Below are positions 24,797 through 27,677 of a stretch of 39,632 nt of DNA, in pieces. The notes under the pieces are model-generated. The model saw nothing but the letters and a program-made list of their open reading frames with translations, was not told the DNA's origin and ran no database searches. The DNA comes from Verrucomicrobiota bacterium. Its GTDB lineage: Bacteria > Verrucomicrobiota > Verrucomicrobiia > Chthoniobacterales > UBA6821. The stretch lies in the NCBI GenBank assembly GCA_021413925.1, contig JAIOPL010000008.1, forward strand, positions 1-39,632. The letters run 5' to 3'. Both the position numbers and the translations under genes were made by a program. The first letter of the stretch is position 1, and every line of letters starts with the position of its first letter.

Positions 24797-26728
24797 CTAG
24801 GCGTCAAACATGGCGCCGATTTCCTTGCCGTATTTCTCGGTGATGACATGGCGGCGGAGCTTGAAGGTCATCGTGAGCTCGTCCCCGACCTGAAACGGCT
24901 TCTCGATCAGCTCAAACGCGGCGATGCGCTCGAAGGGCTTGAATCCCGTGGCATCTCCGACAAGGCGTCTAATCTCGAGGCGGAGCATCTCACGGGCCTC
25001 GGGGTGTGCTTTGAGCGCTGCAACATCATCGGCAGCAATGCACGCTCCCGCAAATCCAGCAAATCCGGCAAGCGAAGGGACCACCAGTAGTCCGAGATGC
25101 TTCTGATCCTGACCCACGACCATGCATTGGTCGATCAGGTGGGACTCGAGCAACTTGGACTCGATGGGGAGAGGTTCCACATTCTCGCCGCCTAGCAGAA
25201 CGATGGTCTCCTTGCACCGACCGACGATCTTCAGGCAGTCGTTGAAGGACATCACCCCAAGATCGCCGGTAGCTAGCCATCCGTCCTGCAGGACGCGAGC
25301 AGTTCCCTCGGGATCCTTGTAGTATCCCTTCATGATCTGAGGGCCCTTGGCATGGATCTCGCCACGCTTTCCACGGCCGAGATCCCTGCGTGTCGGATCG
25401 GGGTAGAGAATCGCCCCCGTCACGAGATCGACGATTCGGATCTCCGTCCCAGGAAAGACGGGGCCGACCGTGCCGATCACGAGTTTTTCCCAGGTGCGAA
25501 CGGCTAGCACCGGGCAGCTCTCCGTGAGCCCATAGCCCTCAAGCACAGGGATGCCGATATCATTGAAGAAGGCATCGACATGGGGAGGCAGGGCTCCACC
25601 ACCGGAAATCGTCCCCCGGAACTCACCGCCGACCACGGCACGCAGCTTGGAGAGAACCAAGCGATCCAGCAGTAACGACGGGATGATGCAGAGCGCCCAT
25701 CCTATGGCATGACGAATCGCCAGGAGTGACGAGACCGACACATCGCGACCATGGAGATCGATCTGCCTACCGGAGAAGAAGGAATCGGCCGTGCGCACCT
25801 CGTGGGCTGTGAAGCGGGCCGATCGGAACAAGATCCTGCGGAGAAGTGATGCCTTCTGAACCTTGGACACAATCCGCTGATAGAGCCCCTCCCAGAGACG
25901 GGGAGCCGAAACCATGATTGTCGGCTTCACAGACTGCAAATCCTCTCCAAGATGTCGAAGCGTCGTGTAGTAGGTGTGGACGCCGCAGGCGATGGAGATC
26001 ACCTCGAAGACACGCTCGTAGCTGTGCCAGATGGGCAGGATCGAGAGGGCCCGGTCCTTAGGTGTCAGCACAAAAGGGAGATTCTGAATCTGCGAGGCCA
26101 TCGCGGCATGGGTGAGTTGTACCCCCTTGGGCGTGCCGGTAGTCCCGGAGGTGTAGATGAGGGTGAAGAGATCCGAGGGACTGATGCCTGCGATCCGCTC
26201 CTCAGCGCAGCGATCGCCCTGGAGACGCAGCTTCTCCCCCCGGATCTCGAGATCACGGAGTGCGTGGACATTCTTCGGAAGATGCCCCTCCCCTTCTACG
26301 GGGCTCATCAGGATGAGATGGCGAAGCTTAGGGAGTTGTCCGCGTACGGACTCCACCTTGGCAAGCACGTCAGCATTCTGAACAAAGGCCACCTCAACGT
26401 CAGCATGATCGAGGATATAGGCGATCTCGCCCTCCGTCACATCAGCGGCACGCGGCACATCGGCACCTCCGCAGAACTGAACGGCGGCATCGACCAGAAT
26501 CCACTCGAAGCAATTATCAGAGAGGATTGCGACATGATCGCGGGCCTCGATCCCGAGCTCGATCAATGCCGTCGCAAGGGCAAGCGAGCGGTCAATCCAT
26601 GACCCGAAACTGACGGAGTGAAAGGTCCCGTCGGCCCGACGAGTAGAGAAGGCGGGGCACTGGCCCCACCTGTTCCCCGCCTCCGCAAAGAGGGAGGCGA
26701 GGTTCGGCGCGGAAATCCGTCCGGTCAT
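24797..26728 (-). CDS. Long-chain fatty acid-CoA ligase (AMP-binding family)
   Basis: The 643-residue enzyme belongs to the ANL superfamily, which activates carboxylates by adenylation and transfers them to CoA or a carrier. The P-loop-like motif is IYTSGTTGTPKG near 190-201. A5 appears as GYGLTESCP, A7 as WLATGDLG, and A8 as VGRCKETIVLLGGENVEP. The insert around 300-390, which includes hydrophobic helices (SLLAIRHAIGWALCIIPSLLLDRLV), resembles the membrane-associated long-chain acyl-CoA synthetase subgroup (FAA/FadD15-like). The exact acyl chain cannot be told. It lies 21 bases after the AT-hook gene, and no beta-oxidation gene is adjacent. Confidence 0.87.
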   Translation of the reverse strand: MTGRISAPNLASLFAEAGNRWGQCPAFSTRRADGTFHSVSFGSWIDRSLALATALIELGIEARDHVAILSDNCFEWILVDAAVQFCGGADVPRAADVTEGEIAYILDHADVEVAFVQNADVLAKVESVRGQLPKLRHLILMSPVEGEGHLPKNVHALRDLEIRGEKLRLQGDRCAEERIAGISPSDLFTLIYTSGTTGTPKGVQLTHAAMASQIQNLPFVLTPKDRALSILPIWHSYERVFEVISIACGVHTYYTTLRHLGEDLQSVKPTIMVSAPRLWEGLYQRIVSKVQKASLLRRILFRSARFTAHEVRTADSFFSGRQIDLHGRDVSVSSLLAIRHAIGWALCIIPSLLLDRLVLSKLRAVVGGEFRGTISGGGALPPHVDAFFNDIGIPVLEGYGLTESCPVLAVRTWEKLVIGTVGPVFPGTEIRIVDLVTGAILYPDPTRRDLGRGKRGEIHAKGPQIMKGYYKDPEGTARVLQDGWLATGDLGVMSFNDCLKIVGRCKETIVLLGGENVEPLPIESKLLESHLIDQCMVVGQDQKHLGLLVVPSLAGFAGFAGACIAADDVAALKAHPEAREMLRLEIRRLVGDATGFKPFERIAAFELIEKPFQVGDELTMTFKLRRHVITEKYGKEIGAMFDA

Positions 26729-26749: not shown

Positions 26750-27331
26750 TTAATACGAGGCAGGGGCCTCAGGAGCAACCGCGTCTGTTCCGAAGGAAGA
26801 AACAGGAGCCTGCGCCGGGTGATCGACGGAAGGAGTAGAGACCACCTCGGGAACGATCCCGGTGGGGACAATCCCATCGGCGACATAGAGTCCTTCGCCT
26901 GTCTTCTGGACACCTGCCAGCTTGCCGATACGGACATAGAGGGTCTGCTTGGGGTTCTTGGCAGTCCAGATGTAATTGTCCTGCTCAAGACCGATAAGGA
27001 TCTCCGTCACCTTCATGGGACGGTTGTAGCGATGAAGGACCCTTACCACGGCAGGAGCTAGAGGACCCGAGGGGGAAGTAGGACGAGGGCGGCCGGCTAG
27101 CTTCGATGTGCTGGGCGTGCCATCGGCGGAGAACTTGCGCCCGGAGCCGGGAGGACGACCACGGCGACGGGGGGTCTGAGCGGCCTCCAGAAGCTGGTTC
27201 TTCATAATCACGGTGGCGGCCGGAAGCTCGAGGGTATCGCCAAGGAGTTCGTGGAGCTTCTGCTGAAGACGCTCGATTTTCGAGGCGATCTTCATTGCTT
27301 TCTTCAGTGTAAGTGAGTCAGGGATGGACAT
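26750..27331 (-). CDS. AT-hook and winged-helix-like DNA-binding protein
   Basis: The 193-residue protein has three parts. A helical, probably coiled-coil start (about 8-32) is followed by a basic segment with an AT-hook, RRRGRPPGSGRK at 55-66, and a shorter AGRPRP at 79-84. The third part is a compact domain at about 91-151 (PAVVRVLHRY...MKVTEIL...YVRIGKLAGV...GLYVAD) with the pattern of the winged-helix HARE-HTH group. The tail is Pro/Ala-rich. It is probably nucleoid-associated or a DNA-bridging regulator; the target is unknown. It lies 127 bases downstream of infA and 21 upstream of the acyl-CoA synthetase gene. Confidence 0.72.
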   Translation of the reverse strand: MSIPDSLTLKKAMKIASKIERLQQKLHELLGDTLELPAATVIMKNQLLEAAQTPRRRGRPPGSGRKFSADGTPSTSKLAGRPRPTSPSGPLAPAVVRVLHRYNRPMKVTEILIGLEQDNYIWTAKNPKQTLYVRIGKLAGVQKTGEGLYVADGIVPTGIVPEVVSTPSVDHPAQAPVSSFGTDAVAPEAPASY

Positions 27332-27458: not shown

Positions 27459-27677
27459 TTATGCGGTACGGAAGGTAATGCGCGCCTTGGTCAGGTCATA
27501 AGGGGACATTTCGACAGTTACCTTGTCACCGGGGACAATTCGGATGAAATGCTTGCGCATTTTCCCGGAAATATGAGCCAGTAACACGTGGCCGTTTCCG
27601 AGCTTCACACGAAACATGGTGCCAGGGAGAACCTCGACGACAACGCCTTCGGTAGTGATTGCTTCTTCTTTAGCCAT
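27459..27677 (-). CDS. infA: Translation initiation factor IF-1
   Basis: IF-1 binds the A site of the 30S subunit during initiation. The 72-residue protein has the normal length and single OB-fold. Its signature reads [20 protein letters not shown] near 7-26, then the conserved block [28 protein letters not shown] near 35-62, with ARITFR near the end. The start is ATG at 27677; no strong ribosome site is seen upstream. The gene is transcribed away from the exonuclease gene, with 148 bases between them, and is flanked on both sides by TTGTAACCTTTT-type repeat words. Confidence 0.95.

Follow-up and report, generated by a model that had tools for sequence, protein, structure and literature searches.

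In H-NS, MvaT and Lsr2, an N-terminal oligomerisation region is connected by a linker to a C-terminal part that binds the minor groove of DNA, as described in the available sections of PMC6936261. In Rok, a xenogeneic silencer of Bacillus, residues N154, T156 and R174 read the minor groove and the segment R108-G109-T110-A111 sits in it (available sections of PMC6212790). A further family, HARE-HTH, is marked by an extra helix inserted in the helix-turn-helix, and its roles as a reader of modified bases are put forward only as suggestions, with cytosine modification thought likelier, in the accessible text of PMC11037411. Closer to the organism studied here, a SWIB-domain protein of Waddlia binds DNA genome-wide and the domain also occurs in Verrucomicrobia, according to the accessible part of PMC6426960; the protein described below is of a different kind. 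The Verrucomicrobia literature, to the extent that its text was available to us, yielded no paper on AT-hooks or xenogeneic silencing and none naming a nucleoid-associated protein of this sort. Here we analyse a 193-residue AT-hook and winged-helix protein, a candidate for a previously undescribed type of chromosome organiser in these bacteria. It is encoded within a stretch of 39,632 nucleotides (the window; contig JAIOPL010000008.1) of a genome of 2.4 Mb in 32 contigs (G000), and its genus is a freshwater Verrucomicrobia lineage.

The open reading frame is real, as the first-pass annotation had assumed: its ATG at 27331 is shared by 17 of 17 complete genus sequences aligned, its stop lies at 26750-26752 on the minus strand, and the protein of the closest relative is 94% identical. 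In the window, 127 bases separate it from infA, and the ligase gene begins 21 bases downstream (Table 1). No RNA element was found in the window with Rfam, and a search for a promoter or terminator of its own gave one promoter-like site on the opposite strand (0.8 expected) and no terminator. The infA of the window is the canonical IF-1 gene; a second, divergent IF-1-like gene lies in the ribosomal operon (L078, 2286-2528), flanked by rpsM-like and map-like genes, both named from sequence.

Table 1. Features of the candidate gene, its protein and its neighbours in the window.
Feature	Position	Strand	Evidence
Candidate AT-hook/winged-helix gene, 193 aa	26750..27331	-	ORF call and genus alignment
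N-terminal amphipathic helix, possible coiled coil, residues 6-33	27233..27316	-	model; dN/dS 0.062 (5-33)
AT-hook RRRGRPPGSGRK, residues 55-66	27134..27169	-	alignment, constraint, motif count
GRPRPTSPSGP element, residues 80-90	27062..27094	-	alignment with Rok; dN/dS 0.087
Predicted winged helix, residues 91-152	26876..27061	-	model, Foldseek, VIA-align
Variable tail, residues 153-193, net charge -4	26753..26875	-	alignment, constraint, charge
infA (IF-1), upstream neighbour	27459..27677	-	eIF-1a E 4e-27; syntenic within genus
AMP-binding (acyl-CoA ligase-like) gene, downstream neighbour	24797..26728	-	E 2.2e-71; syntenic within genus

An AlphaFold2 model was built from 24 aligned relatives (alignment A1: 17 complete genus sequences and seven rows from outside the genus). 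It contains helices at residues 6-33 and 38-51 and a winged helix made of three helices (91-102, 108-117 and 127-137) and a two-strand wing (141-145 and 148-151); pLDDT is about 90-92 in the winged-helix block, and the linker and tail are modelled with low confidence. Structure prediction thus bears out the winged helix (91-151) proposed from the letters alone, and the result named beforehand as damaging to that proposal, a model lacking such a fold, did not appear. The coiled-coil start likewise holds as a possibility, since the first helix carries a heptad pattern read from the sequence, with 3-4 spacing (A12-I15-I19-L22-L26-L29). The AT-hook (PRRRGRPPGSGRK) has its GRP core at residues 58-60 within R55-K66 and is flanked by basic residues. 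Hooks of HMGA and plant AHL proteins resemble its RGRPPGSG-type core and basic flanks, although the present hook occurs singly in the genus and is bacterial. When a hook-like motif is defined as GRP with at least four K/R within the 6 residues before and 8 after, the window protein holds the sole example among 227 largely non-overlapping ORFs (at least 90 aa, about 260 kb of G000), and its shuffled sequence yields one in 754 of 100,000 shuffles. The 13-residue Pfam model AT_hook (PF02178) has no match in the window protein at E<=1; this short model gives L052, a protein with two RRGRPRK hooks, just 13.6 bits against a cut-off of 17.4. Within the reach of these tools, both an artefact and an accidental hook can be dismissed. 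The second basic element also noted in the first reading is present at G80-R-P-R-P84, with G80 and R83 nearly invariant in A1 and the exact RPRP not kept. Net charge by segment is +2 (1-33), -1 (34-52), +8 (53-90), +4 (91-152) and -4 (153-193).

Constraint was estimated as dN/dS per segment, with all pairs pooled, for the window gene and 14 genus orthologues (paralogues L025 and L026 and fragments L020 and L021 left out). Values were 0.062 for the helix (5-33), 0.086 for the AT-hook (53-65), 0.087 for GRPRP-SPSG and 0.083 for the winged helix, against 0.171 and 0.282 for the linkers (34-52 and 66-79) and 0.324 for the tail; as pS is near saturation at 0.56-0.66, these figures rank the segments rather than measure selection in exact or absolute terms. 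Across the 15 genus sequences, invariant residues number 18/29 in the helix, 5/19 in the first linker, 11/13 in the hook, 5/14 in the second linker, 7/11 in GRPRP-SPSG, 43/62 in the winged helix and 0/41 in the tail. Helix, hook, GRPRP-SPSG and winged helix are each under strong purifying selection in the genus, and the linkers and tail are less so. Although no other part varies as much as the tail, all 17 complete genus sequences in A1 finish with F, Y or W, and this aromatic end is a possible interaction tip. In one orthologue (L016, 4001-4717, genome G002), the tail is extended by three near-identical APVVPIATEEAPATP-like repeats.

Among solved structures the DNA-binding domain of Rok is the best PDB match, both by sequence (E 0.036) and in Foldseek (rank 1, E 6.7e-3). 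This qualifies the parallel first drawn with chromatin-related proteins, in that no eukaryotic chromatin protein is the nearest solved structure. The sequence match to Rok weakens to E 0.5 when the 24-row profile is used. Aligned by hhalign to a profile of eight Rok homologues from Bacillaceae plasmids (A3), A1 gave a probability of 30% and E 5.4e-4, with a score of 30.4 compared with at most 19.7 in 200 column-shuffled controls and 10.3 for the reversed profile. The Pfam family WH_Rok (PF23159, cut-off 27.6 bits) has no match in the window protein and weak ones in three of the 24 A1 members (best E 0.023), whereas four Rok homologues score 61.5-86 bits; membership of the Rok family was rejected on this shortfall and on the weak profile match. 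The two proteins share an arrangement: like Rok (5ZUZ/5ZUX), the window protein has a predicted N-terminal coiled coil, a linker, a basic GxxRP-S element and a C-terminal winged helix, in a similar length (193 aa, compared with 198 aa for the Rok of L092). In the alignments GRPRPTS lies over GTARPGS of Rok, the basic tail just before the winged helix, and by analogy the GRPRP tail may contact the minor groove. Rok N154, T156 and R174 align with K128, T130 and E146, so that the threonine alone is retained and the reading mode of Rok is not. Judged from sequence and model, layout and predicted fold are similar to those of Rok and the manner of DNA reading appears different. Further departures from Rok are the separate classical AT-hook, the C-terminal tail and the different phylum. 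The overall layout predicted for the window protein also corresponds to that of H-NS, MvaT and Lsr2; unlike in those proteins, the DNA-binding end is a predicted winged helix together with a canonical AT-hook.

Many other winged helices score much like Rok. The Z-alpha domain of ZBP1 ranked second to Rok in Foldseek, and for the model of the distant homologue L042 ZBP1 came first and Rok fourth; we took the likeness to Z-alpha as one of common winged-helix shape and set it aside. Neighbours in VIA-align were 2od5, linker histones, forkhead, Oskar LOTUS, Fur and RNA polymerase delta, and their Z scores of 6.7-8.0, a level that the tool itself calls common, were too even for choosing a family.

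HARE-HTH, the family to which the winged helix had been likened, is approached only at a distance. The window protein has no match at E<=1 in Pfam, HARE-HTH (PF05066, gathering score 25.9) and the H-NS, MvaT and Lsr2 families included, or in NCBIfam, and no protein in 38 related genomes passed the HARE-HTH cut-off. Direct assignment to HARE-HTH was thus rejected and a distant relation kept. Sixteen of the 24 A1 members match HARE-HTH at E<=1 (best 8.3e-4). The connection runs through 17 distant Verrucomicrobiota proteins (A2), kept from 24 matches of a phylum search and including no genus member; dropped were L040 and L041 (already in A1), L049, L053, L054 and L058 (the R-W-A-K proteins described below) and L051 (a long frame judged spurious). 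Of these 17, 16 match HARE-HTH at E<=0.01, and four of six distant homologues exceed the HARE-HTH cut-off singly (L042, L055, L050 and L052, 30.1-32.8 bits; L056 and L047 fall below). In hhalign, A1 and A2 matched each other across the winged helix (probability 99.0, E 6.6e-18), and in G000 the A2 profile finds just the candidate gene (E 2.7e-11). By these profile comparisons the winged helix is related to HARE-HTH but has diverged from it, the link running through distant relatives. The extra helix of HARE-HTH is absent from the models of both the window protein, with three helices over residues 91-137, and L042, which lies over the Pfam cut-off. Through the A2 proteins the winged helix would be homologous to that of RNA polymerase delta, ASXL and HB1; unlike in HARE-HTH proteins, it is here combined with the N-terminal helix and AT-hook. 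As separate observations, L052 (G041, an A2 member) joins its two hooks to a HARE-HTH domain over the Pfam cut-off, and one genome of another Verrucomicrobiota family (G199) encodes six HARE-HTH-like coiled-coil proteins (L043, L055, L059, L061, L062 and L063).

This relation also raises a factor of the transcription machinery like RNA polymerase delta, a HARE-HTH domain with an acidic tail, which would displace or hold nucleic acid on RNA polymerase. VIA-align lists the N-terminal domain of delta as a neighbour (2m4k, Z 7.4; 2krc, Z 6.7), distant relatives exceed the HARE-HTH cut-off, one of them has a faint match to the NCBIfam delta model (E 0.025, well short of the cut-off), the tail of the window protein is net acidic (-4) and sister-genus homologues are acid-rich past the N-terminal module. 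However, an AT-hook and a linker of +8 are unlike delta and the winged helix carries a net charge of +4, so that a delta analogue seems improbable.

Homologues were found in 22 of 38 genomes in a search of relatives, including 16 of 16 of the genus, and in 49 of 213 Chthoniobacterales genomes at E<=0.001, spread over 12 of 45 genera; a draw across the phylum matched 15 of 288 genomes, the window genome among them. The winged-helix version accounts for 42 of the 49 (genus 16, f3 1, f69 9, f5 10 and f4 6), 26 of these genomes thus belonging to four other Chthoniobacterales families, and in the remaining seven (four from the sister genus g2 and three from f6) the match is weak and lies mostly in the N-terminal half. 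Within the genus, the copy in G005 is a contig-edge fragment of 58 residues, and G001 and G010 carry a second long copy elsewhere. Proteins were read from 22 of the 26 non-genus genomes (a set of 17 plus G023, G024, G025, G034 and G035; unread were G373, G375, G377 and G378), and most have the N-terminal helix, basic linker, SPSGPLAPAV and winged helix in the same order. The conservation of the hook expected among orthologues stands within the genus and loosens beyond it, where 16 of the 24 winged-helix proteins read carry a [KR]GR[PK] core (13/17 in one set, 3/7 from A1) and eight lack it, with several basic hook-like stretches in most f69 proteins. In L032 (G023) a Lys/Ala-rich N-terminus replaces the helix, and the N-termini of the winged-helix proteins L132 and L142 (f4) fail the N-terminal profile.

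Adjacency to infA is similarly a feature of the near relatives. The order infA, candidate gene, ligase gene is found on one strand and one contig in 14 of the 16 genus genomes (L001-L003, L005-L012 and L022-L024), with 24 to 203 bases between infA and the candidate gene across the genus; in G001 and G005 (L015, L021 and L066) contig ends limit the view and the visible part agrees. The second copies (L025 and L026) are not followed by a ligase gene; the contig of L026 ends about 280 bases upstream. At the non-genus loci (18 plus L027-L033), infA and the ligase gene are absent within about 3 kb, or less at contig ends, and outside the genus the neighbourhood with infA was seen only in the sister genus. 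Every one of the 16 genus genomes has a match and, within the limits of the contigs, the main copy always sits at one locus, unlike a mobile regulator; a mobile gene is unlikely. A phage-borne silencer was rejected as well: viral contigs gave 45 pattern matches, none confirmed, and phage records gave none.

Codon usage was compared using CAI weights from 17 genes taken as ribosomal protein genes by sequence and a background of 165 ORFs (150 aa or longer, called mechanically) on 12 stretches of one genome, the candidate gene among them. The candidate gene has a CAI of 0.656, at the 91st percentile and at the 97th after GC3 correction; the leave-one-out mean of the ribosomal genes is 0.666. Two HU-family genes fall at the 99th and 65th percentiles, infA at the 55th and the ligase gene at the 68th, and with infA and the second HU-family gene this low, codon bias is a loose guide. 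In this one genome, the ribosomal-like bias is more in keeping with an abundant structural protein than with a rare regulator.

The main rival of a nucleoid protein is a narrower one, a local or mid-range transcription regulator whose dimeric winged helix acts on a limited gene set, perhaps the infA/ligase operon, with the AT-hook as an aid to affinity. Winged helices are commonly transcription factors, and the genus genomes have a single main copy conserved between infA and the ligase gene. Set against this are the location of the gene in other families away from infA and the ligase gene (seven loci L027-L033 and 18 further loci, about 3 kb), the resemblance of its codon bias to that of ribosomal proteins, and an AT-hook with a basic linker that would suggest low sequence specificity; we judge such a regulator unlikely. 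The same codon bias, together with infA gaps down to 24 bases at the genus loci L009, L010 and L017, would suit a basic RNA- or ribosome-associated protein co-expressed with IF-1, whose hook and wing bind rRNA or mRNA. But infA was seen as its neighbour just in the genus and sister genus, the gap in the window is 127 bases and hooks with a GRP core typically belong to proteins that bind the DNA minor groove, which leaves this explanation with very little probability.

Taken together, constraint, charge, layout, codon bias and vertical descent are most economically read as those of a nucleoid protein. With moderate confidence, and on sequence and modelling grounds, we propose that the candidate is probably an abundant, self-associating, minor-groove-binding nucleoid-associated protein of Chthoniobacterales with an H-NS/Rok-like layout. 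Its N-terminal helix would pair molecules through a coiled coil, as the heptads suggest, and the predicted C-terminal winged helix would provide a second DNA contact. By presenting at least two such arms, an oligomer could bend or bridge AT-rich DNA or form a coat on it, and could in this way shape the nucleoid and keep AT-rich or foreign genes silent. Between the two functions left side by side in the first-pass annotation, a lineage-specific nucleoid protein or a regulator, the predicted features favour the former. A conserved, codon-biased candidate makes the organisation and policing of AT-rich DNA in these bacteria directly testable.

The sister genus g2 keeps one end of the protein. In five of its six genomes (G016, G017, G018, G019 and G021), the ORF downstream of infA starts like the candidate protein (for example MNIPDxAxLRKAIxIKxELExLExxLxELL). 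These ORFs (L067, L068, L069, L071 and L072) have neither GRP nor winged helix and instead a long acid-rich tail, with 9-12 K/R against 17-35 D/E past residue 34. The ligase gene comes next in four of the five loci that carry the acidic ORF; what we take to be a HicB/HicA-like pair follows this ORF in the stretch read of G018 and follows infA in G020 (L067 and L070), where no acidic-tail ORF was seen after infA. As g2 retains the N-terminal module, the DNA-binding half was lost or gained between sister genera at the same locus, and the module may pair with something besides itself. Such an exchange between sister lineages offers a natural experiment on the purpose of the DNA-binding end.

A similar N-terminus precedes repeats of the type MSPEARxKIAAAQRARWAK in a group of short proteins (L049, L053, L054, L058 and L145-L155), two or three such repeats being present in nine of the ten read. 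A profile of five of them (A4), whose seeds were first found by their likeness to A1, matches 120 of the 213 order genomes at E<=0.001, including 32 winged-helix genomes and one of g2. Among the A4 matches listed for winged-helix and g2 genomes, which extend to E 6.1e-4 and stop short of those of G007 and G365, the R-W-A-K part is reached in G023 and G382 only, and the others correspond to the N-terminus of the winged-helix protein. The winged-helix version was not found in the other 87 genomes (f6 15, f7 4, f9 66, f12 1 and f4 1), some of whose matches are partial (the N-terminal part alone in, for example, G321, G459, G468 and G479, the C-terminal motif alone in some others). The two versions are nearly complementary in distribution, a pattern that follows families and does not amount to 213 independent observations. 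A1 and A4 align over 35 columns (probability 95, E 3.3e-8), a moderate N-terminal likeness. Against a control of 8.3 bits, the highest score among 1089 other reading frames of G000, seven of ten R-W-A-K proteins and four of five sister-genus proteins score higher with the N-terminal profile; L147, L151, L155, the sister-genus L069 and the winged-helix L142 and L132 do not exceed it. Judged by sequence, chance likeness between coiled coils is a possible source of this similarity. No named family was found for the R-W-A-K proteins beyond a faint resemblance to NUMOD3, which was rejected for the motif (E 0.0096 in one of three proteins, below cut-off).

The acidic tail in g2 and the R-W-A-K parts joined to this N-terminus in other families suggest one dimerisation module with exchangeable ends. 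It is conceivable, though on balance doubtful, that Chthoniobacterales have a nucleoid-protein system of their own, in which an N-terminal dimerisation module carries ends exchanged between lineages: hook and winged helix, basic linker with one to three R-W-A-K repeats, or acidic tail. The acidic-tail version, which has no DNA-binding part, might serve as an antagonist or imitate DNA. Such a system, if real, would add another independent route to xenogeneic silencing to those of H-NS, MvaT, Lsr2 and Rok, in a phylum where our searches met no described silencer. One R-W-A-K protein (L152) carries KGRPPGSAKK, which is very like the hook of the window protein.
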